Shown piece by piece: positions 30,136 through 56,152 of a stretch of DNA of 64,000 nucleotides; position 1 is the stretch's first letter; each line of letters opens with the position of its first letter. This stretch comes from Psychromonas sp. SA13A (GTDB taxonomy: Bacteria > Pseudomonadota > Gammaproteobacteria > Enterobacterales > Psychromonadaceae). Location: positions 248,001-312,000 of the forward strand of contig NZ_WTKU01000001.1 of assembly GCF_011378715.1 (NCBI RefSeq), written 5' to 3'. Position numbers and translations under genes: made by a program. The notes beneath the pieces were generated by a model. That model ran no database searches and had not been told where the DNA came from. It worked only from the letters and a program-made list of their open reading frames with translations.

Positions 30136-30166
30136 TTTTTCATTAATAATGACACGGAGTACAATT

Positions 30167-31147: not shown

Positions 31148-31156
31148 TTATTTGAG

Positions 31157-31190: not shown

Positions 31191-31202
31191 CAGGATTAAA
31201 TT

Positions 31203-35909: not shown

Positions 35910-35918
35910 GGAATAAAG

Positions 35919-36935: not shown

Positions 36936-36952
36936 GCGAAGGGAACCAAAAC

Positions 36953-40112: not shown

Positions 40113-41228
40113 CTATTTAGCATTCCAAGACGCAGAGTAATAAGCACGGTAATTGTTATCAGGATCATAAAGGTTATCATCCCCACCATTACTATGAATG
40201 TTATCGGCAGTCACCAAATGTACTGGTGTTACGTAACCACTAATAGGTTGATCTTGGAAGATACGATTAAACTCATCAATAACTTGCCAGCCATGTAAAC
40301 TCAATGGTTCAGCTACTGTTGCTACCTGAAAATCACCATTACGAATTCTTTCAAATGCCGATTCACTACCATCACCCGCAGAGATGTTATAAGGTGCATC
40401 ACCTTTTTTCTTACCCGCTGATCTTAATGCTGGGGACATATAATCGAAATAGAGATCATTGATCGCTAATGTATAATTATATTTTTCACCGTGTTTTTGC
40501 ACTAAAGAGTAAGTCAGCTGTGGAATACGTGATGACGTGTTCGCTAGCGGTGTATCTTCATAACCTAATACCGAACAACCTTCACATTTTTCAATGTAAG
40601 ATTTCATTACATCCGCTTTATGAACAGCAATGCTGTACAGACCGTCGGTCAATATAACAACATTAGCTTTCCCCTCTGATTTAGCAATTGCATACATCGC
40701 AGATACGCGGGCTACATCATCAGCTGAACTCGTAATATTGGTTTCAATAAATAAATCTTTGATAGGGCCTGGATCAGGCGTTGCATGCCAACTCACTAAC
40801 TTGATACCTAATTTATTAGCTTTACGTAATGTCGGCACCATAGTATTTGGTGTAAACCCACCTATCACAATCCCATCTGGCTGTAAGGCAAGGGCTTGTT
40901 TTACCGCAGATGATTGCGATGGCACACTACCCGCGCCATCCAATACTCTGACATTCCAACCAATCGCTTCTGAAGCTTCCTCAAACCCTTTTACCACGCC
41001 AGCGACACCACTATTTTTTAAGTCCGATGCGATAAAGATAACTGTTTTATCTTTAACTGCGGCAGGTCCTGCAGGCAAAGAAAAAACACTATTAGTTTCA
41101 CCTGATGCTTCAGCAACCACTTGCTTTGCCATATCAACATATTGTTGGGCACTGCTGGTGTCAGCATTTGCGTAGCTTGCTAGTGATGTGATCACTGCAA
41201 AGCTCAAATATTTCATTGTCTTTTTCAT
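40113..41228 (-). CDS. Sugar ABC transporter periplasmic binding protein (ribose/xylose-type)
   Basis: A 371-residue type I periplasmic binding protein with signal peptide MKKTMKYLSFAVITSLASYANA. The mature part has the family features GVVKGFEEASEAIGW, PDGIVIGGF and SAGDGSESAFERIRNGDFQVATVAEPL. It is longer than RbsB. The stop is 11 bp before the lactonase start and its ATG overlaps the permease stop (TAATG). The ligand is unknown; the adjacent lactonase and the operator shared with the yia operon suggest a C6 sugar-acid lactone. Confidence 0.87.
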   Translation of the reverse strand: MKKTMKYLSFAVITSLASYANADTSSAQQYVDMAKQVVAEASGETNSVFSLPAGPAAVKDKTVIFIASDLKNSGVAGVVKGFEEASEAIGWNVRVLDGAGSVPSQSSAVKQALALQPDGIVIGGFTPNTMVPTLRKANKLGIKLVSWHATPDPGPIKDLFIETNITSSADDVARVSAMYAIAKSEGKANVVILTDGLYSIAVHKADVMKSYIEKCEGCSVLGYEDTPLANTSSRIPQLTYSLVQKHGEKYNYTLAINDLYFDYMSPALRSAGKKKGDAPYNISAGDGSESAFERIRNGDFQVATVAEPLSLHGWQVIDEFNRIFQDQPISGYVTPVHLVTADNIHSNGGDDNLYDPDNNYRAYYSASWNAK

Positions 41229-42265
41229 TATTTCACCTTTACGTTGTTTTTAGTTGCGGTTTGTTTTCGTTTTTGACTAAAACCAGCCAAGGTAATAGCC
41301 ACTAGTAAAATTGCGCCATTAAATAAGGGTTCGACGAAGAAAGGAGTACCCAGTTGTTGTAAACCTGAGATACCAACACTTACCAAGGAGACGCCAATAA
41401 TGGTGCCCCATACATTCACTCTGCCAGCTCTAAATGTGGTTGACCCTAAAAAAGCCCCCACTAAAGCAGGTAACATAAAATCTTGTCCAACCGAAGAGGA
41501 ACCAATACCGATATGTGAAGCTAACAACACACTAGCAAAGGCGATCAGGCCATCGGAAACAACATAAGATCCGATATAACAAGCCTTTGTATTAATACCA
41601 TTTAAGGTTGCTGTATTAGGGTTCGCACCTACCGCATACAACTTTCTGCCCAGCGCTGTATATTCAGTTAACAACCACAAAGCAAAAGTGATTGCTGCGA
41701 GATAAAACACCACAACAGGCAAGCCAAATATTTCAAAACCACTTAAATTATAAAAACTTTCAGGTAAAGCACCGACTATTTGACGACCATCCGTATGCCA
41801 AAGTGAAATAGCATAAATCACTGTGCCGGTTCCTAATGTTGCAACAAATGAATCAATGTCTGCTAATGCCACTAACATGCCATTTAGCACGCCATATAAG
41901 CAGCCACATAACACCACGATAACTGCAGCCACTTCCCATGAAAAACCGTAACGTTGTTGTAGTGTAATGACTAAAACATGCCAAAACGTAACACCAAAAC
42001 CTACATTCAGATTCATCTTGCCTGTCACCATAGTGACCATTGCAGCTAGCGCCAGAATCGCGACCACACTCTTTTCACTGAGGATCGCCTGTAGCGTTAA
42101 CATCGAGAAAAAAGTATCTGTGGTGGCACTAAACAATATAATTAATAAGACGGTTAGTATTAATAAGCCATATCTCATTAATACTTGTGTGACCATGTTT
42201 CCTAAACCTAGCTTCATCGTCACTTCTGTTTCTAACGCGGTAGACTTAATATTAGATGTTGACAT
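41228..42265 (-). CDS. Sugar ABC transporter permease (RbsC/AraH type)
   Basis: A 345-residue BPD_transp_2-family permease with about ten helices. Marks are LSEKSVVAILALAAMVTMVTGKMNLNVG near residue 60-85, the VATLGTGTVIYAISLW stretch and NPNTATLNGINT. It overlaps the ATPase stop by 14 bp; its own stop overlaps the binding-protein start. Confidence 0.88.
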   Translation of the reverse strand: MSTSNIKSTALETEVTMKLGLGNMVTQVLMRYGLLILTVLLIILFSATTDTFFSMLTLQAILSEKSVVAILALAAMVTMVTGKMNLNVGFGVTFWHVLVITLQQRYGFSWEVAAVIVVLCGCLYGVLNGMLVALADIDSFVATLGTGTVIYAISLWHTDGRQIVGALPESFYNLSGFEIFGLPVVVFYLAAITFALWLLTEYTALGRKLYAVGANPNTATLNGINTKACYIGSYVVSDGLIAFASVLLASHIGIGSSSVGQDFMLPALVGAFLGSTTFRAGRVNVWGTIIGVSLVSVGISGLQQLGTPFFVEPLFNGAILLVAITLAGFSQKRKQTATKNNVKVK

Positions 42266-43790
42266 GTTGTACCTCTTCTACTTTTGAACCTGACGCGTAC
42301 TTCAATAAATTTGATAAAGTCACATCTTCTTGAATTAACTCTTTCACGACTCGTCCACGGTTAAAGACTAACGCGCGATTTGATATATTGACGACCTCTT
42401 CAAAGTCGCTTGAAATAACGATCACAGCGAGACCATTGTTAATCGCTTTTTGCATTATTTTGTATATTTCAGAGCGTGCACCTATATCAACGCCAGCAGT
42501 TGGGTTATCTAAAATCATGACTGGTTTATTCATATTGAACCATCTAGCTAGGATAATTTTTTGCTGGTTGCCACCACTCATAGCATTGATAGCAATGTCA
42601 GGATCCCTTGGTCTAACCGTATACTCGAGCATCGCTTGTAATGTCGATGACTGCTCTTTTTCCTTGGACAAAAACGATAAATCGTTCTTGCCTAAGTTCT
42701 TCGGATTTAAGTTTAAATTTTCCAAAGCACTCATCGATCCACAAATACTTTCTTTTACGCGGTCTGCTGCGACCATCGCTATACCACTGGCAATACTATT
42801 TGCTGGTGAGGAAATATTCGCTGGCTGCCCATTAATCACTACACTGCCACTGTGAATATTTAAGCGACCAAATAACGATTGTCCTATTGCCTCTTGCCCT
42901 GCGTTTCTCAACCCAACTAAAGAAATTAGCTCACCTTTTCGTAGCGTCATATTAAAAGGGTCAAGGTCACCCACCTGTAGATTTTTTATATCTAAAACAA
43001 TGTCAGCGGTTGAGTTTAATGGCGTTCTATAACTCATCTCTTTTTTCATACCAACGATTAACGTCACTAAATCATCTAATGAATAATCTTTAACTAAACC
43101 AGAGCCCACCATTTTTCCATCACGTAACACCACCACATCATCACAAATATCATGAATTTCATCTAAACGGTGTGAAACATAAATCATGCCTACACCTTGA
43201 GACTTCAAACGCTTAAGTACATCAAACATGCGCCCGACATCACTCGCCACTAAAGATGCTGTTGGTTCATCCAATATCAACACCTCTGCATCAGCTATCA
43301 GCGCACGAGCAATCGTTAACAATGCTTTTTCAGCAGCGCTCAAGTTAAAAATACGTTCAGAAGCTTTTGCATCTAAGCCCACTAAGTTAAGAACTTCAGT
43401 TGCTTTTTTTTCAGCTTCTTTCCAATTAATTAAGCCCCACTTTTTAGGAAAACCTAACGTTAACCCAATATTTTCGGTAACTGTCATCCATTCAATCAAT
43501 CCCAAATCTTGATGGATAAATGCAATCGGTGATTTACCAGAACGATTCAGAACAGTGGCATCTTCTATCGACTTGTCCTTAAAAAGAATGTCACCGCTGG
43601 TTTTTTTATTAATGCCAGCCAAGGTTTTGATTAAAGTCGATTTGCCAGCACCATTTTCTCCTAATAAAGCAACGCACCGACCTGGGTGCACATTAAAAGA
43701 AGCAGACTCTAACGCTACAAAATTAAAAAACCGTTTCGTCAGGTTATTAATCGAAAGCAAACTACCTTCGGGGGTCTCTACAAATCTCAT
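42252..43790 (-). CDS. Sugar ABC transporter ATP-binding protein, two nucleotide-binding domains (RbsA/XylG type)
   Basis: A 512-residue tandem ATPase. The first domain has Walker A GENGAGKS (residues 44-51), Q-loop FIHQDLGL, signature NLSAAEKALLTIAR and Walker B VLILDEPTAS. The second has the degenerate Walker A typical of the family (GLRNAGQEAIG), signature MSGGNQQKIILARW and VMILDNPTAGVD. It is the first gene of the operon, starting 39 bp from the 17-bp palindrome at 43829. Confidence 0.93.
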   Translation of the reverse strand: MRFVETPEGSLLSINNLTKRFFNFVALESASFNVHPGRCVALLGENGAGKSTLIKTLAGINKKTSGDILFKDKSIEDATVLNRSGKSPIAFIHQDLGLIEWMTVTENIGLTLGFPKKWGLINWKEAEKKATEVLNLVGLDAKASERIFNLSAAEKALLTIARALIADAEVLILDEPTASLVASDVGRMFDVLKRLKSQGVGMIYVSHRLDEIHDICDDVVVLRDGKMVGSGLVKDYSLDDLVTLIVGMKKEMSYRTPLNSTADIVLDIKNLQVGDLDPFNMTLRKGELISLVGLRNAGQEAIGQSLFGRLNIHSGSVVINGQPANISSPANSIASGIAMVAADRVKESICGSMSALENLNLNPKNLGKNDLSFLSKEKEQSSTLQAMLEYTVRPRDPDIAINAMSGGNQQKIILARWFNMNKPVMILDNPTAGVDIGARSEIYKIMQKAINNGLAVIVISSDFEEVVNISNRALVFNRGRVVKELIQEDVTLSNLLKYASGSKVEEVQHVNI

Positions 43791-43828: not shown

Positions 43829-43845
43829 ATTCCACAATGTGGAAT
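43829..43845. promoter_or_regulatory. 17-bp palindromic operator upstream of the sugar ABC operon
   Basis: ATTCCACAATGTGGAAT is a perfect palindrome around a central A. Fifteen of 17 bases match the palindrome before yiaK (55597-55613). A half-site ATTCCAT lies 30 bp upstream (43859-43865), as it does (31 bp) at the yiaK site. The YiaJ-like IclR protein encoded at 46786 is the likely ligand. Confidence 0.7.
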
Positions 43846-43865
43846 ATCATTCCGACAAATTCCAT

Positions 43866-44136
43866 ATTATAGTAGTGATAGTCATTGAAATAAGATGTGA
43901 TTCACCTCCTAATTTAAATCTATTGGTTCACTAATCTCTGTTTAATTGATCTTCATCCCATTAAAATCACTCACTAAAAACAAGGTTTTATAAGTAAAAA
44001 TGAACAGATGAAATGCAAAAAATAGCCATCAAAAACTTAGCTATATCGCATTATTTATTGATATTTTTAGGTAGGTCATTGATCTAATTTGAATTTATTA
44101 CCAATCTGAAAGAGGTAATAATATTACAACGCAAAG
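43866..44136. other. AT-rich intergenic region upstream of the small membrane protein
   Basis: No coding region is supported. It separates the divergent sugar ABC operon promoter from the sigma-70 promoter at 44137. Confidence 0.3.
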
Positions 44137-44165
44137 TTGACTTGAGTCACAGTTTTGAGGATAAT
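44137..44165 (+). promoter_or_regulatory. Near-consensus sigma-70 promoter for a small protein gene
   Basis: TTGACT (44137-44142) and GATAAT (44160-44165) are separated by exactly 17 bp. The predicted start is near 44172, about 30 nt before the ATG at 44202. Such a strong promoter in an otherwise regulated catabolic region supports the small gene as real. Confidence 0.7.
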
Positions 44166-44201
44166 ATGTACGAATTCATTATATAAGTAAGGAAATTACG
44201 T

Positions 44202-44339
44202 ATGAATACTACAACTTTAGATAACTCAGTAAAAAATTTAGACAACGTTTCAGCATTTGCTGATAAAGCATTTTTCTTCGCGAAAATGGCGATTGTGATG
44301 AGTGCAATTATTTTAGTAGAAGTGTCAGCTTGGGTTTAA
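44202..44339 (+). CDS. Small membrane protein of 45 residues, unknown function
   Basis: The frame begins MNTTTLDNSVKNLDNVS and ends MSAIILVEVSAWV. It has a charged, soluble first half (about residues 1-25) and one hydrophobic segment to the C-terminus (about 26-45), so it is probably a single-pass small membrane protein. An AAGGAAATTACGT ribosome site and a near-consensus sigma-70 promoter support expression. I do not recognise a family. It lies alone between two minus-strand operons and points the opposite way. Confidence 0.65.
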   Translation: MNTTTLDNSVKNLDNVSAFADKAFFFAKMAIVMSAIILVEVSAWV

Positions 44340-44451
44340 TTAATCATTTTTTTAATTAAAAATGAAAATATATATTTAAAAACGAAAACATAATATAGAA
44401 AAAAGTCTCCCTTTTTGGGGTACTAATAGCACTTATTACAAGCACCACAAT

Positions 44452-44483
44452 AAAAAAACGCCAGTAATGATCCACTACTGACG
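44452..44483 (-). terminator. Terminator of the diketogulonate operon (minus strand)
   Basis: Read on the minus strand, CGTCAGTA (44483-44476) pairs with TACTGGCG (44466-44459) and is followed by seven T. It lies about 80 bp after the last gene of the operon. Confidence 0.75.
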
Positions 44484-44561
44484 CCTCTTGTTTAACAATC
44501 ATCCATATTCTTATGCTGATATAGGCTTAGTACACTTCGCCTAGCACAGCAATCAAATGTA

Positions 44562-44885
44562 TTAATCCTGAATAAGATTCATGTGATGCACCCTAATGTT
44601 ATATTTTTCAATAATTTTCTTAGTTGCATTCATACTCTGTATTCTTTGTTCAGAATCTAAAGCCTGTTGCATTAATGCTTTGTTTGCATAGCTATGCTGC
44701 ATTATCAACAATACTTCCTGATGCGCTTCAGACTCAATAAACTCAGGCTTACTTAATACAACACCTTGATTGTGAGGAAAAGTATCAATAATAGGTGCAA
44801 CAACCTGTTGCATATATTGATAAAAATCTTCTTTTTCTTCAGCACTCAAGTTGGCTTCAAAAAATGCCGTTCTTAAAATAGTCAT
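44562..44885 (-). CDS. ABM-domain (antibiotic biosynthesis monooxygenase-like) small protein
   Basis: A 107-residue protein that fits the dimeric ferredoxin-like ABM/YgiN superfamily by size and by the pattern MTILRTAFFEANLSAEEKEDF near the start with a C-terminal YNIRVHHMNLI strand. Such proteins range from quinol monooxygenases to sugar mutarotase-like or stress proteins, so no reaction is assigned. It is the last gene of the diketogulonate operon, 50 bp after the transaldolase gene. Confidence 0.6.
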   Translation of the reverse strand: MTILRTAFFEANLSAEEKEDFYQYMQQVVAPIIDTFPHNQGVVLSKPEFIESEAHQEVLLIMQHSYANKALMQQALDSEQRIQSMNATKKIIEKYNIRVHHMNLIQD

Positions 44886-44935
44886 TCAGTATTTCCTTTG
44901 TAACCTATTAAACTGTTAAACCAAGCTTTAGCAGA

Positions 44936-45883
44936 TTATAATTTAGCTGCAATCATCGCTTCAAGTTTGCCTTGGTCGAGTGCAAAATTTCGAATACCTT
45001 CAGCCAGTTTTTCAACCGCCATTGGGTCTTGGTTATGTTCCCATAAAAACTCAGCTTCGCTCATTGCTTCAGGGCGATCTTGCTGTGTTTGAGCGGGTTG
45101 TAATTTAACTTCAACATCACCATCTGACTGTTCTAATTTTTGCAATAAATCAGGGCTGATCGTTAATCTGTCACAACCTGCTAATTCCAGAATTTCACCT
45201 ACGTTTCTAAAACTAGCTCCCATCACTACGGTTTTGTAATTATGCGCTTTGTAATAATCATAAATTTGGCTAACAGACTGTACACCAGGATCTTCACTGG
45301 CTTCAAAATCTTGTCCTTGCTTCGCTTTATACCAATCCATAATACGACCAACAAAAGGCGAAATTAAAAAGACACCGGCTTCAGCACAAGCACGCGCTTG
45401 AGCGAATGAAAATAACAGAGTTAAATTACAGTTAATGCCTTCTTTTTCAAGTTGCTCGGCAGCACGTATACCCTGCCAAGTAGCCGCCAACTTAATCAAG
45501 ATACGATCATTCTTAATACCAGCATCGTTATACATTTTGATTAACTGACGTGCTTTAGCAATACTGCCCTCGCAATCATAGGAAAGGCATGCATCGACTT
45601 CTGTTGAAATACGCCCTGGGACAACGTTTAATATCTCTTTACCAATGCTTACCGCTAACATGTCACAGGCTGCTTGGACTTGTTCTTTACTGTCTTCACT
45701 TTGTGTTTTTGCATAGGCAATCGCTTGATCCATTAAAGGTGCATAATCACTTAATTGTGCCGCTTTTAGAATCAAAGAAGGGTTAGTTGTTGCATCTTGA
45801 GGATGATATTTTTGAATCGCTTGAATATCGCCAGTATCAGCAACCACTACGGTTAGTTTTTTAAGCTGTTCTAATTTATTCAT
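44936..45883 (-). CDS. tal: Transaldolase (TalB type)
   Basis: A 315-residue transaldolase. The Schiff-base Lys131 is in [13 protein letters not shown], with [12 protein letters not shown] near the start and [17 protein letters not shown] later. It interconverts sedoheptulose 7-phosphate, glyceraldehyde 3-phosphate, erythrose 4-phosphate and fructose 6-phosphate in the cytosol. Its place in this operon makes sense because the pathway ends in xylulose 5-phosphate. The start follows GAGGTGGAATAGTAATA. Confidence 0.95.
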
Positions 45884-45906
45884 TATTACTATTCCACCTC
45901 TTATAT

Positions 45907-46776
45907 TTATAGTGCAAAGCCTGCCGCATTAGCAATGGTTTTTAATTTGCTTCTAGCTGCTTTAATATCATCTAACCATTGATCATTTTGCGCCCACATT
46001 TCAATAACGAGGGGAGCGCTATAATCAATCTCAGCTAATGTTTTAAAGATCGCTGGGAAGTCCACTTGCCCCTCACCAATAACTAAATCTCTAAATTGGC
46101 CTTTACAGGTTTCAGAAACACGCAGCGTATCTTTTAGATGTATTTGCACAATATGGTCACGCGATAATTTCAACTCTGTACACACGTCATAATTCCAACC
46201 TGTAATGTTACCCACATCAGGATAAGCCATAAAAAATGGAGATGGAATTTCACGCTTTAACACTTCAAACTTACTTAATGAGTTAAGGTATGGTGTATCC
46301 ATGATCTCTACACCAAGCATGATCCCTGCTCTTTCAGCCATTTTAGTTGCTTGTTGCATGCCATCAATAAAACGCAAATGAGTTTCCTCTGACTGCGGTT
46401 CATAAAACACATCGTAACCCGCCATTTGAATACAACGAATACCTAGCTTATAAGCCAGTGCGATTGCTTTTTCCATGATCACTAATGACTCAGCTCTAAT
46501 AGCATCGTCCATTGAACCAAATGGAAATTTTCTATGCGCACTTAAACACATAGATTGCAAAGGCATTTCATGTTCTTCACATAAACGGCGCAAAGCATAT
46601 ATTTCTTGATCACTCCAATCTAAACGCGCACGACGTTCATCAGTTTCATCCACAGATATTTCTACAAAATCAAATCCCGCTTGTTTAGCATTGATTAAAC
46701 GCTCTTCCCACGTTAATGAGGTTGGCATCGCTTTTTCATAAATACCCAAACGAAACTTATTCTTTAAATTAAACAT
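45907..46776 (-). CDS. sgbU: L-ribulose-5-phosphate 3-epimerase (UlaE/SgbU type)
   Basis: A 289-residue TIM-barrel epimerase. Family marks include [18 protein letters not shown] at the N-terminus, [34 protein letters not shown] and [13 protein letters not shown]. It converts L-xylulose 5-phosphate to L-ribulose 5-phosphate after the decarboxylation step. Together with SgbH and SgbE it links 3-keto-L-gulonate 6-phosphate to D-xylulose 5-phosphate. Confidence 0.93.
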
Positions 46777-46785
46777 ACTAGGTCC

Positions 46786-47544
46786 TTAGTAAAGTTGCTG
46801 CTCTATACGTGCAGTAAAGGATTGAATTTTTTGAGCTAAAATGGGGTAACTAATTTTCCTCATTTTAGGTGTTAAAGAGGAGACGCTCACCGCGTAAACA
46901 GGTTTTTGAAATTTATCAAAAACGGGTACCGCAACACAGGAAATACCAGCTTCATTTTCTTCATCATCGAGGGCATAACCTAATTTTTTAATATCATCTA
47001 AAGCAGTAAAGAACTGACCTTTATCTAGGATGGTATTCTCGGTTAGCGGTTTCATGGTGCTAGCATTTCGTTGCCAGTAAGCTTCTCTGACCATGTCAGA
47101 GCTAAAGGCTAAATAACATTTCCCAGCCGCAGAGCAATACATTGGCGAGTGTAAGCCTACGTAAGTACGGGTTCTAAAAGACGCATTCTCAGGCTCAAAC
47201 TTATCTTTAAAGACAATGTTATCAGCATCAAATGATAAGAAATTAACTGTCTCATTCACTTCACCTAATAACTCAGATAAATAGGGTTTTACTATGCCAG
47301 TCACGTCAGAATTCATTGCAGAATGGCCAAGGTGCACCAATTTCATGGTCAATCGGTACTCTTTACCTGAACTGAGTTGAGCAACATATCCTGCTTCTTC
47401 AAAGGTTGCCAAAATTCGATGAGCTGAGGATTTATTAAACCCAGTTCCTTCTGCAATTTTTTGTAGAGAAACGCCATTAGGGAACTGCCCTAAAAATTCT
47501 AAAACGACTAATGCTTTCGATAAGGATTTAATTTGCTCACTCAT
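46786..47544 (-). CDS. IclR-family regulator (YiaJ-like)
   Basis: A 252-residue IclR protein with helix-turn-helix FNKSSAHRILATFEEAGYV and effector domain marks AAGKCYLAF, DDEENEAGISCVAVPVF and VYAVSVSSLTP. E. coli YiaJ represses the equivalent yiaK-S operon. Here the gene is inside the operon, between sgbH and sgbU, rather than divergent from it, so it would be autoregulated. The two 17-bp palindromes before yiaK and before the sugar ABC operon are its likely sites. Confidence 0.87.
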   Translation of the reverse strand: MSEQIKSLSKALVVLEFLGQFPNGVSLQKIAEGTGFNKSSAHRILATFEEAGYVAQLSSGKEYRLTMKLVHLGHSAMNSDVTGIVKPYLSELLGEVNETVNFLSFDADNIVFKDKFEPENASFRTRTYVGLHSPMYCSAAGKCYLAFSSDMVREAYWQRNASTMKPLTENTILDKGQFFTALDDIKKLGYALDDEENEAGISCVAVPVFDKFQKPVYAVSVSSLTPKMRKISYPILAQKIQSFTARIEQQLY

Positions 47545-47551
47545 AATGTCA

Positions 47552-48196
47552 TTACCAATATTTATTCATTTGACTATGGAAGCTATTAGCAATTTCAACA
47601 CCGTTGCTACCCGCTAAAGCGCGACCAGCAATAAATGATTTAACTGATATATCCTGAAATAGATGTACATCTTCAGGCACAATGCCACCGGTGATAGAAA
47701 GCGCAATACCAAGGTCTGATAGGCTTTTCATTTTTTTCAAATCTTCATCTGTCCAACTCACCCCAGCTAATTCAGCATCACGAGAGCGATGATAAATAGC
47801 TTGAGTAATACCCATTTCAACCCAATCTTTAGCATCATCTAATGTCCAATGGCCATAAAGCTCGATTTGCACTTCACCATTAAATTCATCGGTTACTTTT
47901 TTCGCAGAACGAATGGTTTCTATATGTGCAGCAGCACTCACTGTTACCCAGTTAGCACCGGCTTCCATAGCTAAACGCGTTAGAATGGCGCTGGCATCGG
48001 TAATTTTCATGTCACAAACAATAATATGATCTGGGTATTTATTGCGTAATACTTGAACGCTATCCACACCATGAGCAAAGGCTAAAATCGTTCCTATTTC
48101 AATCACATCTAATTTTTCTGAAACATCTGCTACTGAAGCTATTGCCGTTTCTAGATCCGTTGCATCTAGGGCCATTTGTAATAAGGGTTTAGTCAT
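47552..48196 (-). CDS. sgbH: 3-keto-L-gulonate-6-phosphate decarboxylase (UlaD/SgbH type)
   Basis: A 214-residue OMP-decarboxylase-superfamily enzyme. The catalytic Asp62 and Lys64 of the KGPDC motif are visible in CDMKITDA at the same positions as in E. coli UlaD, and SITGGIVPEDV binds phosphate. It releases CO2 from 3-keto-L-gulonate 6-phosphate to give L-xylulose 5-phosphate. The ATG at 48196 gives the family N-terminus MTKPLLQMALD and overlaps the kinase gene by 8 bp; an ATG at 48211 is less likely. Confidence 0.94.
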   Translation of the reverse strand: MTKPLLQMALDATDLETAIASVADVSEKLDVIEIGTILAFAHGVDSVQVLRNKYPDHIIVCDMKITDASAILTRLAMEAGANWVTVSAAAHIETIRSAKKVTDEFNGEVQIELYGHWTLDDAKDWVEMGITQAIYHRSRDAELAGVSWTDEDLKKMKSLSDLGIALSITGGIVPEDVHLFQDISVKSFIAGRALAGSNGVEIANSFHSQMNKYW

Positions 48197-49682
48197 TAAT
48201 CTGTTCCTCAAATGTTTTAAATAGTTGAACTAATTGCTGATAGTGATGATATTTTTTATTCAAAGCTTGGTGGTTATCAACATTAGGCAGAATACGCTTG
48301 CTTTGACTGACAATATTATCCATGCACTCACGGCTCGATGAATACTCGCCAGCTCCAACCATCGCAACAATAGCCGCCCCTAATGAACCGGTTTCATCTA
48401 TGTCCGTTATCTCCACTTCCATACCGGTCAAGTCCGCTAACATTTGCATCCACGTATTATTAGAAGTAGGTCCGCCAGTCACTTTTAGTATTTTTGCTTG
48501 TGGGAATCTAGCTCTCATTCTTTCTAGGTGTATATTGTGACAGAACAATATACCTTCCCAGATTGCTTGAATAATATGCGCCTTAGTATGGTGAGCCTGC
48601 AAACCATAAAAGCCTGATTTAAGGCCTAAACCTTGGTTAGAACCATATAAAAATGGAACAAAATAAACACTACTCGATGCCACTTCCAAGTTAGCCACTA
48701 ATGACTCATTGTGTTGATGTTGTAATTCCCCATCTGCACTTAAATATTCAGCAAACCATTCATAATTTCCCGCCGATGTAGGGCTTGCTTCATGAATAAT
48801 ATATTCACCTTCAACGGCATAATGTCCGTACACAAAATTATGTGTTGCTTGAGTTATTTCACGTGTAATACCTGAGGTCACCGCCCACGTTCCCATCACA
48901 TAGTTTAATGCTTGTTCCGATGCATCAATACCCGAACACAATGCGGTAGAAACAACATCAAACAATCCACCAAAAACAGGTGTACCAGCAACTAAACCCG
49001 TTTCAAGCGCGACTTGCTGAGTAATGCTACCGGCTAATTGATCCGGTTGAACAATATTAGGTAGAGCATCCCAAACTTCTTCGATATCAAATAAGGTTAA
49101 TAAATCCATATCATATTGGCCGGTTTGAGCGTTAAAGAAATTACTCTCCGACATATTGGTTATTTCAGCACCCACCTCACCCGTGAAACGATATCGAATA
49201 TAATCATGCGCCATCATGATCGCTCCAATATTAGAATAAAGCTCAGGTTGATTGTCTTTTAACCAACGGATAATAGACACCGGGTGTCCAGTCCATAGCG
49301 TTTGCAGCGTTTTGCTGTAGATCTGATCTGGTAAACCTTGTTGTAACCATTCTTTAACAATGCTTAATGAGCGTGAGTCAGAAGACATGATGCCACGCCC
49401 TAAGTTGTGACCTTGCTTATCTAGTAGGTAAACGCCTTTTCCTTGCGCGGAAATACTAATGCCTTTAATATCTTCACGATTGATATCTGTGGTTGCTAAT
49501 AACTCTTTGATCACAATAACTGCATCATCCCACAAACTATCAAGATCTCTTTCTACCCAACCCTGCTGTTCATTAATGACACTTGCAGAGGTTCTTGTTA
49601 AAGCAACTTGTACACCTTTACTATCGTATAAAGCAGCCTTCATAAAAGTGCCGCCAGAGTCTAAACCTATATAATAATTCAT
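48189..49682 (-). CDS. lyxK: FGGY-family L-xylulose/3-keto-L-gulonate kinase (LyxK type)
   Basis: A 497-residue FGGY carbohydrate kinase. N-terminal YIGLDSGGTFMKAALYD binds phosphate, SAQGKGVYLLDKQG is in the middle, and the C-terminal TGGPTSNNTWMQMLADLTGMEVEI is the FGGY signature region. E. coli LyxK, of almost the same length, phosphorylates L-xylulose and 3-keto-L-gulonate. Here it would make 3-keto-L-gulonate 6-phosphate for SgbH. Confidence 0.92.
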   Translation of the reverse strand: MNYYIGLDSGGTFMKAALYDSKGVQVALTRTSASVINEQQGWVERDLDSLWDDAVIVIKELLATTDINREDIKGISISAQGKGVYLLDKQGHNLGRGIMSSDSRSLSIVKEWLQQGLPDQIYSKTLQTLWTGHPVSIIRWLKDNQPELYSNIGAIMMAHDYIRYRFTGEVGAEITNMSESNFFNAQTGQYDMDLLTLFDIEEVWDALPNIVQPDQLAGSITQQVALETGLVAGTPVFGGLFDVVSTALCSGIDASEQALNYVMGTWAVTSGITREITQATHNFVYGHYAVEGEYIIHEASPTSAGNYEWFAEYLSADGELQHQHNESLVANLEVASSSVYFVPFLYGSNQGLGLKSGFYGLQAHHTKAHIIQAIWEGILFCHNIHLERMRARFPQAKILKVTGGPTSNNTWMQMLADLTGMEVEITDIDETGSLGAAIVAMVGAGEYSSSRECMDNIVSQSKRILPNVDNHQALNKKYHHYQQLVQLFKTFEEQIND

Positions 49683-50173
49683 TATTTTATGTCCAATAAA
49701 TCGTTATGGATCTTCACCACCAGCTTACGAACTATTTGCTGATCATCATCTTGGATGTTCGTAATGTGGACCACATTCGGTGTAAACAGATAAAAGCACC
49801 CAGGGATCGCTGCGATATAATTTAAATCGATACCTTGATATTCATAAAAAAGAATATCTCTGTCTGGGTTATAAGGCTGATTAATTTGATGTTTACCTGT
49901 ATCTAATGCCCATGCCATCGTTTCTTGGCCTGTTAATACTATTTGTAAATCAGAATGGTATTGATGCACTTCCGGCTGTAAGTCGGTTAATGGTGATTTG
50001 TTATATTCTAGAAGTACAAACCACACTTTTTGATTATCTAAGTTGTTAAACTCATGTCGCCCCAGCGCTAATGAATGCAAGTCTAAAGCTGATAACTCAT
50101 TCAATACATCATCAATGATCGCCGGATAGCTAGTTCTCATTGCACTGTTGTCAATATGTCCAATTAACATCAT
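49682..50173 (-). CDS. yiaL: YhcH/YjgK/YiaL-family cupin-like protein
   Basis: A 163-residue protein of the DUF386 family. The metal-binding His and Glu pattern is seen in VHQYHSDLQIVLTGQETMAW and in VVHI near the end. E. coli YiaL sits in the same operon, and relatives are thought to be sugar-acid anomerases or isomerases. The stop and the following kinase start overlap at 49682. The reaction is not established. Confidence 0.85.
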   Translation of the reverse strand: MMLIGHIDNSAMRTSYPAIIDDVLNELSALDLHSLALGRHEFNNLDNQKVWFVLLEYNKSPLTDLQPEVHQYHSDLQIVLTGQETMAWALDTGKHQINQPYNPDRDILFYEYQGIDLNYIAAIPGCFYLFTPNVVHITNIQDDDQQIVRKLVVKIHNDLLDIK

Positions 50174-50180
50174 GTACCCT

Positions 50181-50999
50181 CTATAAAAATGTTTTTAATA
50201 GCAGCTGTGCAAGTGCACTTGGGTGGTCGTTATTCGAGGTGACGTGTTGCGCGTGTTGCTTAACCTCTGGCTCAGCGTTATCCATTGCAACGCCTAACCC
50301 TGCTAATTGCAGCATAGAAATATCATTATGATTATCACCAACCGCGACAATCTGATTTGCTTCAATCCCTAAGTTAAGCGCATATTGAGAGAGCGCATTA
50401 CCTTTGCTATTACCTTTATTGGCAAAATCAACTCTATCTACCCAAGAGCGTTCACCATTAAAATTATTGTTAATAAAATCAGTCTGATTAAACGAGTCCA
50501 CTTCACCGCCTTCAACAACAAACTTCCAAATATAATCTGTCTCTTGTAAGGCATCAGTAAAACTATCAACCTGTAAAATACTTGGCCTTTCGGCTACTGG
50601 ATAGTTATTTGCCCACTGTGACAGTTTTTCCATATAAGCAACCGGTTGCTGTGTTGAATACAGCATTGAATCTCGGCTATACATCACCATTTTGAGGTTG
50701 AATTGTTTCGCAAGCTTAATGAAATCAAGTGCTTTTGACTTATCTATTGATTTTTCAGAGAGCACTTTTTTATTATGGTAATCGTAAATATAAGTACCGT
50801 TACAACAAATAATTGGCGTGCTTAGGCCTAACTCATGGTAATAAGGAGCAGCCGCCACATGATGACGTCCAGTCACAATAACAACATGGTGAACCTGTGA
50901 AATTTGTTGAATTGCCTGAACTAACTGAGCGCTAATTTTATGCTCTGAATTTAAAACAGTACCATCGAGATCCAACGCCAATAATTTATACATAAGCAT
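50181..50999 (-). CDS. HAD-superfamily (Cof type) sugar-phosphate phosphatase
   Basis: A 272-residue HAD hydrolase of subclass IIB. The nucleophile motif LALDLDGTVLNSE is at the start, motif II is IVTGRH, and the C-terminal motif VAVGDNHNDISML binds magnesium. It probably removes phosphate from a sugar phosphate and could act as a house-cleaning enzyme for the pathway. It is not part of the E. coli yia operon. ATGs at 50999 and 50993 are both possible. Confidence 0.87.
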   Translation of the reverse strand: MLMYKLLALDLDGTVLNSEHKISAQLVQAIQQISQVHHVVIVTGRHHVAAAPYYHELGLSTPIICCNGTYIYDYHNKKVLSEKSIDKSKALDFIKLAKQFNLKMVMYSRDSMLYSTQQPVAYMEKLSQWANNYPVAERPSILQVDSFTDALQETDYIWKFVVEGGEVDSFNQTDFINNNFNGERSWVDRVDFANKGNSKGNALSQYALNLGIEANQIVAVGDNHNDISMLQLAGLGVAMDNAEPEVKQHAQHVTSNNDHPSALAQLLLKTFL

Positions 51000-51005
51000 G
51001 TGCCT

Positions 51006-51704
51006 TTATTTTTGACCGTAGTAAGAGTTTGCACCGTGTTTGCGAGAATAATGTTTATCTAATAACGCGGGATTAATCATAATCTCAGGATTTAATGCTC
51101 TAGTGCCAATCGCCATTGCAGATATTTCTTCTAATACAACCGCATTATGCACGGCATCAAAGGCATCTTTTCCCCATGAGAAAGGAGCGTGCCCAGCAAT
51201 TACAACACCTGGAATTGCTTTTGGATCTAACTTGCGTTTAGCAAATTCTTCAATAATCACCGTACCTGTATTTTTTTCGTAATCATGCTCGATTTCAGCA
51301 TCACTTAATTGTCGCGTACATGGAACATTGCCGTAAAAATAGTCTGCGTGTGTTGTCCCTAGCGCCGGGATATCGATGCCAGCTTGGGCCCAAATAGTTG
51401 CATTTCTAGAATGCGTATGAACAATGCCACCGATATTAGGGAAAGCTTTATAGAGTTCGATATGCGTTGCCGTATCACTAGAAGGGTTAAGCTCACCTTC
51501 AATTCGATTACCTTCTAAATCAATAATGACAATATGTTCTTCTGCCATTACATCATATTCAACACCCGATGGTTTAATCGCAATCACACCTTTTTCTCTA
51601 TCGATTTCAGAGACATTACCCCAAGTAAAAGTCACTAGACCATACTTAGGAAGTTGTAAATTAGCCTCTAATACTCTTTTTTTTAATTCTTTATATATGC
51701 TCAT
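51006..51704 (-). CDS. sgbE: L-ribulose-5-phosphate 4-epimerase (AraD/UlaF/SgbE type)
   Basis: A 232-residue class II aldolase-fold epimerase. Zinc ligands lie in [13 protein letters not shown] and in AGHAPFSWG; the conserved TTHADYFYG is present. It converts L-ribulose 5-phosphate to D-xylulose 5-phosphate, the last pathway step before central metabolism. The araD name is less fitting because no arabinose isomerase or kinase is nearby. Confidence 0.94.
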
Positions 51705-51787
51705 ACCCTGTGGCCCCTTTTTATCATTTACATTGATAAATACGCCACCTAGTCACACCCTTAACTAGATGACGTATATTTTCTTAT

Positions 51788-52762
51788 CTATTTTGTAGCA
51801 GCTTGGATCTTGTTAATCATGTCATCGCCATTTGCTTCAATAAATGAAGCCCATACTGGCTTAACCACTTCTTGGAAAGCAGCACCATCAACATCACGGT
51901 TAACTTTCATACCATGCGATTCTAAATCAGCGATCATTTGATCTTCTTTAGCAATACTAAGCTTACGTTGCATATCAACGGCTTCTTTAGAAACTTCTGT
52001 TATGATTTTTTGATTTTCAGCACTTAATTTATTGAATTTTTTCAAGTTCATAGTCAATACTAAAGGCGAGTAAGCGTGTTGCGTCATGCTTAAGTATTTT
52101 TGAACTTCATAAAATTTAAATGACAATGTCACGCCAATTGGATGGTCTTGTGCATCAACAACACCTGTTTCTAATGCGCTGTAAAGTTCAGCAACAGGGA
52201 TTTGTTGTGGATTGGCTTTAAGCTCATTAAACATATCATTCAATGCTTTCGAACCATTTACTCGCATTTGTAAGCCTTCAAGATCTGCTGGTGTGCGAAT
52301 TGGTTGACGGCTGTTAGTAACATTACGGTATCCACTTTCAGGATAACCTAAACCTTTAATACCGAATTTTTCCATTGAAACTAATACTTCTTTACCAGGT
52401 GCGCCATCAAGTGCTGTATAAGCAGATTCGCGGGTAGGAAATATAAACGGAAGTGTAAAAGCCGATGATTCAGGTAAGAAACCAGAGTAGTTATTTACAC
52501 CTACCATGGAGAAATCTAGAATCCCTGAGCGAGTACCGTCGATCATTTGTTTATCGTTACCTAACTGTCCCTGTGGGAAGATATTAATTTTAATATCGCC
52601 ATTGGTACGAGCCTCTACTTCTTTTTTAAAGAATAAGGACATGTCTTGTTGTAAATCAGATTCAGGCGCAGCATGAGCCAGTTTTAATGTCGTTTGTGCC
52701 GACACTGATGAACAAAAAGCAATCGTCGATGCAATCCCTACTATTTTAAAAAATGTTTTCAT
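51788..52762 (-). CDS. yiaO: TRAP transporter solute-binding protein (YiaO type), 2,3-diketo-L-gulonate
   Basis: A 324-residue DctP-family periplasmic protein with signal peptide MKTFFKIVGIASTIAFCSSVSA. The conserved Arg site is in LEGLQMRVNGSK, followed by VAELYSALETGVVDAQDHP. The E. coli equivalent binds 2,3-diketo-L-gulonate. The start at 52762 follows AGGAGAAG and gives the signal peptide; the ATG at 52795 would add 11 residues and overlap the upstream gene. Confidence 0.9.
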   Translation of the reverse strand: MKTFFKIVGIASTIAFCSSVSAQTTLKLAHAAPESDLQQDMSLFFKKEVEARTNGDIKINIFPQGQLGNDKQMIDGTRSGILDFSMVGVNNYSGFLPESSAFTLPFIFPTRESAYTALDGAPGKEVLVSMEKFGIKGLGYPESGYRNVTNSRQPIRTPADLEGLQMRVNGSKALNDMFNELKANPQQIPVAELYSALETGVVDAQDHPIGVTLSFKFYEVQKYLSMTQHAYSPLVLTMNLKKFNKLSAENQKIITEVSKEAVDMQRKLSIAKEDQMIADLESHGMKVNRDVDGAAFQEVVKPVWASFIEANGDDMINKIQAATK

Positions 52763-52781
52763 TTTCTTCTCCTTGGGTAGT

Positions 52782-54062
52782 TTAACCAATGACAAAAGCC
52801 ATCGGGACAGTAATAATACTTGGAAATATTACAAATAAAGTTAACAGAATCATGTACGCACCAATAAAAGGTAACACCCCTTTTACCGCGGTAGACATGG
52901 GTACTTTAGCCACACCACACACCACGTTTAAAACGGTGCCAACAGGTGGAGTGATTAAACCTATAGAACAGTTAATAACAAACATCAAACCAAAATAAGT
53001 GACGTCAATACCCGCCATTTTAACAATCGGCATCAGTAATGGTACGAGGATCAAAATCGTCGGACTAAGGTCCATTACCATACCCACACACAATACCAAT
53101 AACATGATCACAGCCATCAATAAGCGAGGGCTATCAACCAGTGGACCTAACATGCCAGCAAGTTGTTGTGGTAATTGCGCAACAGTAATCAACCAAGCCG
53201 CAACCATTGCACATCCCACCAAGAACATAACCATGGCAGTTGAACGCCCCGCAGTTAATAAGATGTTATAAAAATCTCTTAAGGATATTTCACGGTAGAT
53301 GACACTTGATACAAAAATGGCGTAAACAGCAGCAACCACAGCCGCTTCTGTTGGTGTAAAAATACCAAAACGTATACCGCCAATAATAATGAATGGTAAG
53401 AACAACGCCCAAATACCATCTTTTAGTGCTGCACGTCTCTCTGCTTTTGATGCTTTCTCTTTGACTTCTAAATCTTCTTTTCTAACTAATAAGCTCCATA
53501 CAAACATGAGCGTTAAGCCCATTAACAAACCAGGTACGATACCGCCTAAGAAAAGGTTTTTAATAGAAATACCGCCTGCAACACCCACTAAAATCAGTGG
53601 TAGTGAAGGGGGAATAACAGGGGCGATAATGCCACCGGAAGCGAGCAAGCCCATTGATGAACCTTCAGGGTATTTAGCTGCTTTCATCATAGGATATAAA
53701 ATACTAACCAATGCCGCCGCATCTGCTACTGCTGAGCCAGATAAACCCGCCAGTAATACCGAAGTTAAGATTGCTACGTAACCTAAGCCACCTTTACGAT
53801 GCCCAACATAGGTGGTTGCTAATCTCACAATTCTTTTAGACAGACCACCTGCAGACATCACCTCACCAGCGACTAAAAAGAATGGAATAGCTAATAATGT
53901 GAAACTATCTACGCCATTAATAAGGCCTTGAGCAAGAATATCCGCACTGAATAGATCTAAATGGAACATCAGTGCTATTGATGACAATAGCAATGCAAAT
54001 GCAACCGGAAGACCTAACAGAATTGAGATAATCAATACCGATAAAAATATTGCTAAAACCAT
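52782..54062 (-). CDS. yiaN: TRAP transporter large membrane subunit (YiaN type)
   Basis: A 426-residue DctM permease with about 12 helices. Motifs include GVDSFTLLAIPFFLVAGEVM, LLAGLSGSAVADAAALVSIL, IPPSLPLILVGVAGGISI and GLITPPVGTVLNV. It forms the channel with YiaM and receives substrate from YiaO. Order M-N-O matches E. coli. Confidence 0.92.
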   Translation of the reverse strand: MVLAIFLSVLIISILLGLPVAFALLLSSIALMFHLDLFSADILAQGLINGVDSFTLLAIPFFLVAGEVMSAGGLSKRIVRLATTYVGHRKGGLGYVAILTSVLLAGLSGSAVADAAALVSILYPMMKAAKYPEGSSMGLLASGGIIAPVIPPSLPLILVGVAGGISIKNLFLGGIVPGLLMGLTLMFVWSLLVRKEDLEVKEKASKAERRAALKDGIWALFLPFIIIGGIRFGIFTPTEAAVVAAVYAIFVSSVIYREISLRDFYNILLTAGRSTAMVMFLVGCAMVAAWLITVAQLPQQLAGMLGPLVDSPRLLMAVIMLLVLCVGMVMDLSPTILILVPLLMPIVKMAGIDVTYFGLMFVINCSIGLITPPVGTVLNVVCGVAKVPMSTAVKGVLPFIGAYMILLTLFVIFPSIITVPMAFVIG

Positions 54063-54065
54063 TAT

Positions 54066-54551
54066 TTATTCTCCATTCTCTTTATGATCGAGCAACCAAT
54101 CTGGATTAATAATCCGTACCAAAGCAATCACTCCCATCAGCCCGCCAGAAATAACACCCGCGAGATAAAATAGTGCAGATGGTAGCCCCGTCAGTTGAGA
54201 AATATCTCCCCAATTAGCCATCATTTGATTGAATGAACCTAGGTATAACATGCTAACTGACACTAAAATGACAGCCCAACATAGGCGTCTTAATATGGGC
54301 ACGAACTTGGGAAACAATTTCTCGGAAAATTCACTCACAGCAAGGTGCTCACCGCGGCGCAGCACAACGACTGCACCTAACATGACAACCCAAACAAGGC
54401 CTAGACGAGAAAGTTCCACGGAAGGACGTAGACCTGAGGAAAATCCATAACGTAAAACAACATTAGTAAAGACAAGCACAATCATAAAAGACAAAACGGC
54501 TGCCATTAAAATATCGATACAGTTCCAGATCCACTTAAATACACTTCGCAT
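54066..54551 (-). CDS. yiaM: TRAP transporter small membrane subunit (YiaM type)
   Basis: A 161-residue DctQ protein with four helices and the family segment NVVLRYGFSSGLRPSVELSR. It ends 3 bp before the large-subunit gene and starts 25 bp after yiaK. Confidence 0.9.
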   Translation of the reverse strand: MRSVFKWIWNCIDILMAAVLSFMIVLVFTNVVLRYGFSSGLRPSVELSRLGLVWVVMLGAVVVLRRGEHLAVSEFSEKLFPKFVPILRRLCWAVILVSVSMLYLGSFNQMMANWGDISQLTGLPSALFYLAGVISGGLMGVIALVRIINPDWLLDHKENGE

Positions 54552-54576
54552 AAAGTTCTCCTAATCTAGCGCTCAA

Positions 54577-55578
54577 TTACAAGGCTGTGATTTGATTCCA
54601 AATCTCATCGTGAATCTCGATGCCACCGGCTTTTTCATGCTTATCGATGAAGTTCTGCATTTCTGAACCAGCAATCATTACAGATCCTGTTTCAGCAGGC
54701 TCAGACGCTAATACATAATCACGAATACGTTTCATCTCACGAGCAAATTGGTCTTTTTCCATAGTTCTGCTCAAATCAATCGCAATCAAGAATTGAGATA
54801 CGCCAAATTCGCCGCCCATATCTTCAGTAAGAGCAGGAACAGAGTTACCACCAGTGATTGCCGTTAACATCATGTCTAATACGATAGACATCGACGAACC
54901 TTTCCAAAATCCCATTGGTAATAAACGTTTGTTTTCCCATAAGATATGCGGGTCAGTCGTTAACTCACCATTATCATCAAAACCACCAACAACAGGTAAT
55001 TGCTTATCAGCTAATACATAGTTTTGTAATTGACCGTAAGAGAATTGGCTCATTGAGCAATCAACAACTACAGGTGGATCGCCGGCAATTGCCATAATAA
55101 GCGGGTTAGAACCAACACGATGATCTTTACCACCCCAAGCAGGCATAACAGCGATAGAGTTAGTTGATGCGATACCAGCAAACCCTTGTCTCGCCATTTT
55201 TAATACATAAGCACCACCACGCATCCAATGGTTAGAATTACGCATACCAACCATGCCAATACCATGTTCGCGTGCTAATTCCATTGCTCGTTCAGAACAA
55301 ATCAAACCATTCAAAACACCCGGTCCAAAATTACAATCCCATTGCTCAAGCGCGCCCATACTGTTAACACATTTAGGCACTTCATTAAGTTTGATTTGGC
55401 CTTTATCTACTTGATCAATAAAAACAGGAAAGCGATTAATACCATGAGAATAAGTTCCTTCGTTAGCCATCTCTACGAAACCAGCGGCTAGTTTTGTAGC
55501 CATTTCGCCATCCATATCTCTCGCTAATAAAATGCGTTCGTATTCTTCTTGTAATCTTTTAATTGCTACTAATGCCAT
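54577..55578 (-). CDS. yiaK: 2,3-diketo-L-gulonate reductase
   Basis: A 333-residue type-2 malate/lactate dehydrogenase-family enzyme. The catalytic His is in TYSHGINRFPVFID, with MRNSNHWMRGGAYV and WKGSSMSIVLDMM further along, as in YiaK. It reduces 2,3-diketo-L-gulonate to 3-keto-L-gulonate with NADH. It is the first gene of the operon, 18 bp from the palindromic operator, and keeps the E. coli order yiaK-M-N-O. Confidence 0.92.
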   Translation of the reverse strand: MALVAIKRLQEEYERILLARDMDGEMATKLAAGFVEMANEGTYSHGINRFPVFIDQVDKGQIKLNEVPKCVNSMGALEQWDCNFGPGVLNGLICSERAMELAREHGIGMVGMRNSNHWMRGGAYVLKMARQGFAGIASTNSIAVMPAWGGKDHRVGSNPLIMAIAGDPPVVVDCSMSQFSYGQLQNYVLADKQLPVVGGFDDNGELTTDPHILWENKRLLPMGFWKGSSMSIVLDMMLTAITGGNSVPALTEDMGGEFGVSQFLIAIDLSRTMEKDQFAREMKRIRDYVLASEPAETGSVMIAGSEMQNFIDKHEKAGGIEIHDEIWNQITAL

Positions 55579-55596
55579 CTTGACCTCCAGTTATGA

Positions 55597-55613
55597 ATTC
55601 CACAATACGGAAT
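55597..55613. promoter_or_regulatory. 17-bp palindromic operator upstream of yiaK
   Basis: ATTCCACAATACGGAAT has perfect 6-bp outer arms (with flanking A and T, AATTCC/GGAATT). It matches 15 of 17 bases of the site at 43829-43845. A half-site ATTCCAT lies at 55628-55634. Because it sits only 18 bp before the ATG, a bound repressor would block initiation or elongation. Confidence 0.7.
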
Positions 55614-56152
55614 TAATACTAACCAAGATTCCATTTTATTCACTATTTTAAGGCTTGTTTTTAGACACAAAGCACACAAAAATTTATAAATAATTGTTTT
55701 AAAAGGATTTAAAATAAATTTGAAGGAGATCGTATAAATAGAGATTAAAAGAGATGGTTTTATAAAAATTTGAAATGAATCACTTTTTTATTGCTGGAAA
55801 TAGAGTTTCACCTGTCATTACATAGTGAGATAGTGAGATAGTGATACAAAAAATATAGGGAAAGCGTGAGGATGAAAAACAAGGAGTAGTTATTGTGGAT
55901 AAGAGAAAGCCGGGCAATGCTGCAATGATTTTTGTTGCAGCCATTGATGCCACAGAAGATATTAGTGACCCAATAATGGGCTTTATTATACCTACCCCGT
56001 TAGTTTAATAATCGAATATTATGTAGGGAAAAGGAGCTAGTTTAAGGCAAAAGTTACCGTAAATGGTTACTCCCTTTACAAAACTTTTAACGCAAAAATA
56101 GTTTCTTTTAGCCAGTAAGATTGATCAGTTACTTAGCGGAGTCGGTATTAGC
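55614..56152. other. Intergenic region upstream of yiaK
   Basis: AT-rich DNA with an 8-bp tandem repeat (AGTGAGAT twice and partly a third time, 55824-55845) and one short frame with a ribosome site (55895-56008). The yiaK promoter should lie in its left part. Otherwise nothing recognisable is seen. Confidence 0.4.
55895..56008 (+). CDS. Possible short coding remnant or small protein of 37 residues
   Basis: A GTG start preceded by AAGGAG opens VDKRKPGNAAMIFVAAIDAT and continues EDISDPIMGFIIPTPLV to a stop. The C-terminal half looks like part of a membrane or periplasmic protein rather than random sequence, but I do not recognise it. It could be a real small protein or the end of a decayed gene. 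Confidence 0.3.
   Translation: MDKRKPGNAAMIFVAAIDATEDISDPIMGFIIPTPLV

Follow-up and report, generated by a model that had tools for sequence, protein, structure and literature searches.

A shared tandem operator may join an ABC transporter–lactonase operon to the diketogulonate operon of Psychromonas sp. SA13A

Two operons and one palindrome

This report concerns a 64,000-nt stretch of the genome of Psychromonas sp. SA13A (assembly GCF_011378715.1, contig NZ_WTKU01000001.1, positions 248,001–312,000, forward strand), hereafter called the window, in which two minus-strand operons are each preceded by a copy of the same palindrome. The first operon has the order ATPase-permease-binding protein-SMP-30 and encodes a sugar-type ATP-binding cassette (ABC) transporter with an SMP-30 lactonase; the second, which carries the genes of the 2,3-diketo-L-gulonate pathway, has the order yiaK-dctQMP-araD-cof-yiaL-kinase-ulaD-IclR1-ulaE-transaldolase, where dctQMP is a tripartite ATP-independent periplasmic (TRAP) transporter and IclR1 a regulator resembling PlaR (YiaJ) of E. 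coli. Judging from sequence comparison, we consider it very probable that both operons belong to a single local regulon under IclR1.

The two predicted operators, ATTCCACAATGTGGAAT and ATTCCACAATACGGAAT (Table 1), are identical at 15 of 17 bases, with all eight palindromic pairs matched in the former and six of eight in the latter. They lie 38 nt from the ATG of the ATPase gene (43790, minus strand) and 18 nt from that of yiaK (55578, minus strand), respectively, and in each case an additional ATTCCAT half-site starts further upstream, 30 bp from the start of the first palindrome and 31 bp from that of the second. The agreement between the palindromes, their position just before the first genes, the extra half-sites and the location of a YiaJ-like regulator gene inside the second operon had all been noticed in the original prediction, which was made from the letters of the window, and all of them hold.

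How rare is this palindrome? ATTCC-N7-GGAAT is found twice in the window, at the two operators and nowhere else, and a search of the window allowing up to three mismatches gives five rows, four of which are the two strands of the two operators (shuffle mean 0.85). When the window is scored with a weight matrix derived from 17 sites in relatives, its own sites being excluded, the two operators come first at 25.5 and 23.4 bits out of a possible 27.8, and the next match reaches 11.4 bits. Across the whole 4.57-Mb genome, the relaxed motif ATTCCRYAWTRYGGAAT is matched exactly at the two operators and nowhere else; no place matches at one mismatch, and 10 do at two mismatches. The original prediction, which had seen no further copy and had suggested a genome-wide scan, is borne out here as well. 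The 10 two-mismatch places were compared with the proteins of the window only, and we claim no further target from them; the best-scoring one (C49:156328, 18.0 bits) falls within a TRAP permease-like gene. ATTCC-N7-GGAAT occurs at three places genome-wide, of which C5:2961 differs from the two operators in its centre, and is equally frequent when read backward.

Table 1. Predicted operators and genes of the two operons, with the neighbouring IclR2 gene (positions in the window).
Feature	Position	Strand	Remarks
Palindromic operator (predicted), ABC-lactonase operon	43829..43845		ATTCCACAATGTGGAAT; 23.4 bits
Second, weaker palindrome upstream of ABC-lactonase operator	43859..43875		One ATTCCAT arm; 3 mismatches
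Palindromic operator (predicted), yiaK (diketogulonate) operon	55597..55613		ATTCCACAATACGGAAT; 25.5 bits
Second half-site upstream of yiaK operator	55628..55644		ATTCCAT arm, 31 bp offset
Sugar-type ABC transporter ATPase	42252..43790	-	Best NCBIfam matches xylose, arabinose, ribose, below cut-offs
ABC permease	41228..42265	-	BPD_transp_2
Periplasmic sugar-binding protein	40113..41228	-	Peripla_BP_4; signal-like N-terminus by eye
SMP-30/gluconolactonase	39214..40101	-	Conserved site motifs; no signal-like N-terminus by eye
yiaK, 3-dehydro-L-gulonate 2-dehydrogenase (2,3-diketo-L-gulonate reductase)	54577..55578	-	Above NCBIfam cut-off
TRAP transporter dctQ-dctM-dctP	51788..54551	-	Match E. 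coli YiaM, YiaN, YiaO
L-ribulose-5-phosphate 4-epimerase (SgbE/AraD-like)	51006..51704	-	
Cof-type HAD hydrolase	50181..50999	-	
YhcH/YjgK/YiaL family protein	49682..50173	-	
FGGY kinase	48189..49682	-	49% to E. coli LyxK
3-keto-L-gulonate-6-phosphate decarboxylase (SgbH/UlaD-like)	47552..48211	-	
IclR-family regulator IclR1	46786..47544	-	38% identical to E. coli PlaR/YiaJ; likely operator binder
Pentulose-5-phosphate 3-epimerase (SgbU/UlaE-like)	45907..46776	-	
Transaldolase	44936..45883	-	
Second IclR-family regulator IclR2	38045..38812	-	401 bp after lactonase gene, same strand

Conservation of the operator

For phylogenetic footprinting, 63 related loci were found, of which 24 with at least 62% IclR1 identity (62–92%) were used and 39 remote ones (at most 35%) were excluded; the 24 comprise 11 loci from Vibrio, eight from Marinomonas, two each from Psychromonas and Buttiauxella, and one from Thorsellia. 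A site of at least 14 bits precedes yia or combined yia/ABC units in 23 of these 24 IclR1-orthologue loci, and the one miss (L023) is cut before yiaK. The motif ATTYCRYAWTRYGRAAT has 14 exact places in 15 IclR1 genomes (that of L020 not included), 13 of which lie in the yia/ABC locus, as a comparison of coordinates by hand shows, the remaining one being Thorsellia C57:4167. With up to one mismatch allowed, there are 62 places in the same genomes versus 31 in the backward control.

The second half-site is conserved too. Of 32 distinct upstream regions, all but one (L025 at 9408) have a GGAA half-site at a distance of 30 or 31 bp from the GGAA of the main palindrome, whereas 2000 single-base shuffles gave a maximum of four regions for any neighbouring offset pair; since the species are related, the 32 do not count as independent events. 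(The 32 regions stem from 33 chosen sites; extra far-upstream palindromes were excluded.) Five Vibrio loci (L008 1757, L013 1687, L014 2538, L015 1674 and L018 5078) have a further palindrome 133–237 bp upstream of the yiaK operator, possibly a looping site.

Recurrence of the transporter–lactonase module

All or most of the ABC genes are present in nine cases, namely the window, L004, L005, L018, L019, L020, L021, L025 and L026, and clear sites stand on both units in every one of these except L025. The gene arrangement varies. For example, in the uncultured Vibrio L018 the ABC-lactonase and yia genes face each other, and neither the kinase nor the genes after it were found in the 20.8 kb examined; in Marinomonas L019, L020, L021 and L026 yiaK is at the head of the ABC-lactonase unit. 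The Marinomonas locus L025, from a single metagenome assembly, has araD (to residue 172) running into IclR1 (from residue 84) at 9380–10510; kinase, ulaD and ulaE were not found there, the SMP-30 match is partial and both operators are weak, which fits decay of the locus in nature, although an error in this one assembly may also account for it.

Additionally, the module is found with regulators closer to PlaR. Palindromes of the type ATTYC-N7-GRAAT precede both the ATPase gene and yiaK in L129 and L130 (family f18, which also includes genomes with 90–99% PlaR) and in Pantoea sp. Lij88 (L196); in L136 (family f9, perhaps Pasteurellaceae) palindromes are on both units but at predicted starts and so are less sure. 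Among the nine f9 genomes with the permease, the ABC and SMP-30 genes lie within the yia run in seven, beside it in L136 and apart from it in L131.

Permease and regulator also occur together across the order. In a sample of 394 genomes, apparently the same set in both searches (permease at E<=1e-80, PlaR/IclR1 at E<=1e-45), the ABC permease is present in 14, and all 14 have a PlaR/IclR1 match, which 38 of the 394 have overall (hypergeometric P 5e-16); counted by genus, the permease is in 11 of 115 genera, all within the 22 that have PlaR/IclR1 (P 1e-9). Within Psychromonas, an SMP-30 gene (E 1e-60) is present in three of 24 genomes, and the identical three have IclR1. The permease is missing from 24 of the 38 PlaR/IclR1 genomes, and the ABC-lactonase module is therefore optional. 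The original prediction of one regulon thus gains support from footprinting, from the recurrence of palindromes on both units and from this co-occurrence.

A possible second entrance to the pathway

What might the transporter import? By eye, a signal-like N-terminus is present on the binding protein and absent from the lactonase, which suggests that a lactone would enter the cell intact and be opened there. Opening of dehydroascorbate gives 2,3-diketo-L-gulonate, the substrate of YiaK, and opening of ascorbate would give 3-keto-L-gulonate, the substrate of the kinase. The lactonase itself is a clear family member (Pfam SGL, 1.1e-29) with the motifs EGAAW at 22, SPNDL at 109, RPNGL at 168 and PDGMT at 223, which align with 3dr2 and which form the metal site in this family. 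For the binding protein, the only solved relative by sequence is an arabinose-binding protein, a weak match, and the AlphaFold model is poor (mean pLDDT 46.9).

Gene context in more distant bacteria points in the same direction. In Paraburkholderia graminis (L198 6404–12810), related ABC (44–57%) and SMP-30 (41%) genes occur with PdxA and an enolase-superfamily dehydratase, beside proteins annotated as YncE family and as cytochrome b561 domain. In Cupriavidus necator, b561 and gluconolactonase-family enzymes reportedly turn ascorbate into 2,3-diketo-L-gulonate (Stack et al. 2020, JACS), and the P. graminis set of YncE-like, b561 and PdxA proteins with ABC and SMP-30 presumably resembles that pathway. 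In Leisingera (L197 4022–10216), the ABC genes lie near a gene annotated b561, and no SMP-30 gene was found in that stretch. On balance, we judge with moderate confidence that the imported substrate would be dehydroascorbate or ascorbate. The second entry route that the original prediction envisaged is thus supported by gene context, and among the substrates it named, dehydroascorbate or ascorbate fits better than a gulonolactone.

Other gene groups of this genome deserve mention. An EIIC protein above the cut-off of the NCBIfam 'ascorbate transporter' model is encoded elsewhere (L202 6067–10076, G000:C5); its neighbours are ribokinase-like and class II aldolase genes, and operator scores at this place do not exceed 12.4, so that we draw nothing from it about an ascorbate phosphotransferase system (PTS) route. 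The name of the model may be misleading in this case. In the window, 24826–28391 encodes an entire L-threonate cluster, namely L-threonate dehydrogenase, 3-oxo-tetronate kinase, a decarboxylase and 2-oxo-tetronate isomerase, each scoring above its NCBIfam cut-off; G014 has these genes ~4.5 kb from IclR2. Threonate arises from the breakdown of ascorbate (PMC12540250), and together these observations suggest an ascorbate-breakdown island. Between these genes and the lactonase operon, 29296–37960 encodes a UxuR/ExuR-like GntR regulator, a fructuronate-reductase-like protein, a zinc dehydrogenase and an Ldh_2 dehydrogenase; it adjoins a TRAP transporter and a 5-dehydro-4-deoxy-D-glucuronate isomerase and looks like a hexuronate cluster.

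Comparison with known systems

The closest known relative is the PlaR/yiaKLMNO-lyxK-sgbHUE system of E. coli, which shares an IclR-family regulator, matching enzymes and a TRAP transporter. The Psychromonas regulator gene, however, lies inside the operon, whereas E. coli plaR is divergent from yiaK; the operator arms are ATTCC rather than ATTTC; the second half-site is offset by 30/31 bp in the IclR1 clade and by 20 bp in the PlaR clade; and the 18 kb of the K-12 yia region examined hold no ABC-lactonase genes. IclR1 is 38% identical to E. coli PlaR versus 57–99% for PlaR-clade matches (pairwise identities). Upstream of plaR, 18 of 28 PlaR-clade loci carry a palindrome of the type NTTYC-N7-GRAAN; a GRAA half-site accompanies it at offset 20 in 13 of the 18 and at 30/31 in none. 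Of the 10 misses, at least L161 is due to the assigned start codon (compare L139). The K-12 plaR-yiaK spacer contains GTTTCGCATATTGAAAT (8.0 bits), and near relatives have ATTTC-N7-GAAAT; on our reading, these overlap the published PlaR box. The published work links PlaR to ascorbate, gives its box as ATnTGAAACnnnGTTCAnTT and names ascorbate and galacturonate as effectors (PMC6958661). We infer that this box corresponds to the offset-20 half-site plus the left arm of the NTTYC-N7-GRAAN palindrome, and the comparison suggests that GTTTCGCATATTGAAAT, beside the box, is part of the E. coli yiaK operator.

The statement in the original prediction that the joining of the two gene sets is not the E. 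coli arrangement is correct for K-12, and no near match to the L129 ABC genes was found in E. coli genomes. It does not extend to Pantoea, the two f18 genomes and eight of the nine f9 permease genomes, where the ABC-lactonase genes are inside or beside the yia genes. Plasmids of Pantoea sp. Lij88 and P. deleyi, for example, carry an ABC-SMP30-yiaK-yiaL-MFS-kinase-ulaD-epimerase run beside a PlaR-type IclR gene. The likeness to Psychromonas lies in related ABC (48–56%) and SMP-30 (51%) proteins, in the pathway, and in the palindromes that Lij88 has before ATPase and yiaK; Pantoea differs in its single gene run, in a major facilitator superfamily (MFS) carrier in place of the TRAP transporter, and in a regulator that is 71% identical to PlaR, with PlaR-clade arms.

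Two further ascorbate pathways offer partial parallels. In that of C. necator the oxidised lactone is reportedly opened by a gluconolactonase-family enzyme, which yields 2,3-diketo-L-gulonate, and a related ABC-lactonase module stands in the similarly composed P. graminis cluster, but the downstream route is reportedly non-phosphorylative, and no yiaK, kinase or ulaD is annotated in the 12.9 kb of P. graminis examined. In the UlaABC-UlaG system of E. coli a lactone is likewise imported and opened and the route passes through 3-keto-L-gulonate-6-phosphate, but import is by a PTS, and the lactonase, whose substrate is the 6-phosphate, has a metallo-beta-lactamase fold; Psychromonas has an ABC transporter and an SMP-30 lactonase instead. 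Among the titles and abstract openings retrieved, none joins an ABC–SMP-30 operon to the YiaJ/PlaR regulon; most subscription papers are outside that coverage, and this is no proof of novelty.

Alternative explanations

A number of observations weigh against a common regulon or against an ascorbate-derived substrate. One of 100 window shuffles equalled the five rows at up to three mismatches, and for ATTCCRYAWTRYGGAAT at that tolerance there is no excess in the whole genome (101 places versus 138 for the backward control). The matrix is derived from the same relatives that it scores (window sites excluded), and related species are not independent; similarly, the co-occurrence P values ignore relatedness beyond the genus count and derive from the best five or six candidates scored per genome. 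The two L025 sites score weakly (14.1 and 11.6 bits), and in L131 none was found in front of the ABC genes. The arms in the window read ATTCC-N7-GGAAT and not ATnTGAAACnnnGTTCAnTT, the published PlaR box, and 10 of the 28 PlaR-clade loci have no palindrome in the 400 bp taken upstream. Promoter scans gave nothing above shuffles, and repression is for that reason argued from analogy. As to the substrate, the Paraburkholderia YncE-like and b561 proteins and the Leisingera b561 protein have no Pfam match at 1e-5, so that their names rest on record annotation, and the Paraburkholderia YncE-like and b561 proteins have no match in the Psychromonas genome, an empty answer that shows little. Finally, relatives of the permease occur in 163 plasmid records, 130 of them Rhizobium, so the family is not tied to ascorbate everywhere; among the five of these records examined in gene context, the R. 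leguminosarum stretch has L-idonate dehydrogenase and gluconokinase genes and no yia or b561.

Might the two operons form one regulon whose lactone is not derived from ascorbate? L-Gulono- or L-galactono-1,4-lactone could be opened to an aldonate and passed to another dehydrogenase, such as one encoded at 34476–37960; SMP-30 enzymes are broad, and the cluster of fructuronate-reductase-like, zinc dehydrogenase and Ldh_2 genes ends ~1.3 kb from the lactonase gene. We regard this as unlikely, since neither G018 nor G014 showed this cluster in the stretch examined around IclR2, whereas in Pantoea, in the two f18 genomes and in eight of nine f9 genomes the ABC-lactonase genes are accompanied by yiaK or the kinase.

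A less probable possibility still is that each operon has its own IclR protein, IclR2 acting on the ABC-lactonase operon and IclR1 on yia, with the paralogues recognising similar palindromes. The IclR2 gene, which the original prediction overlooked, follows SMP-30 on the same strand both in the window and in G018 (G014, at a contig end, is consistent with the same order), and both proteins are of the IclR family, 35% identical to each other. IclR2, however, does not track the operator: its orthologues (78–79%) are present in two other Psychromonas, whereas in 13 non-Psychromonas genomes searched at E 1e-30 the sole match is IclR1 itself, and these genomes still keep the palindrome on yia, and on the ABC units where present. 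Additionally, no operator copy was found in the region upstream of IclR2. Because IclR2 is restricted to Psychromonas among the genomes searched and has no upstream operator copy, we set it aside as the common binder and take IclR1 to be the common factor.

Chance resemblance of the two palindromes, to which the AT-rich genome, the 101 places at up to three mismatches and the one shuffle in 100 might lend some credit, is rejected as having a negligible probability, given that the 4.57 Mb hold just two exact matches, each preceding an operon, with none at one mismatch, and that the sites are conserved before the same genes in five named genera.

Proposed regulon and outlook

The model that we favour, a single regulon under IclR1, would work as follows. 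IclR1, which has an IclR helix-turn-helix and an IclR_C effector domain and is encoded together with yiaK and the 3-keto-L-gulonate pathway, would bind a tandem operator preceding both operons, composed of the 17-bp palindrome ATTCCRYAWTRYGGAAT and a half-palindrome 30–31 bp (about three helical turns) upstream. We infer that it would repress both operons as long as no metabolite derived from ascorbate is present. The ABC transporter would import a lactone, most likely dehydroascorbate (or ascorbate), which the SMP-30 lactonase would open in the cytoplasm to 2,3-diketo-L-gulonate, while the TRAP transporter would import diketogulonate already opened outside. Both entries would lead to YiaK, the LyxK-type kinase, and then SgbH, SgbU and SgbE.

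More broadly, we lean towards the view that the diketogulonate pathway has a recurrent accessory module, a dedicated dehydroascorbate/ascorbate ABC importer with its own SMP-30 lactonase, and that the IclR1 clade reads module and core operon through a tandem operator distinct from that of the PlaR clade in its arms and in its spacing (offset 20 in the latter). Comparing the operators also gives a way to check the published PlaR box. If this view is right, the transporter would be a specific, testable candidate for the bacterial uptake of oxidised vitamin C by an ABC system, tied to a regulator and an operator, and in marine bacteria, in Pantoea and in other members of the order the diketogulonate pathway would often have a second entrance that the K-12 locus lacks.

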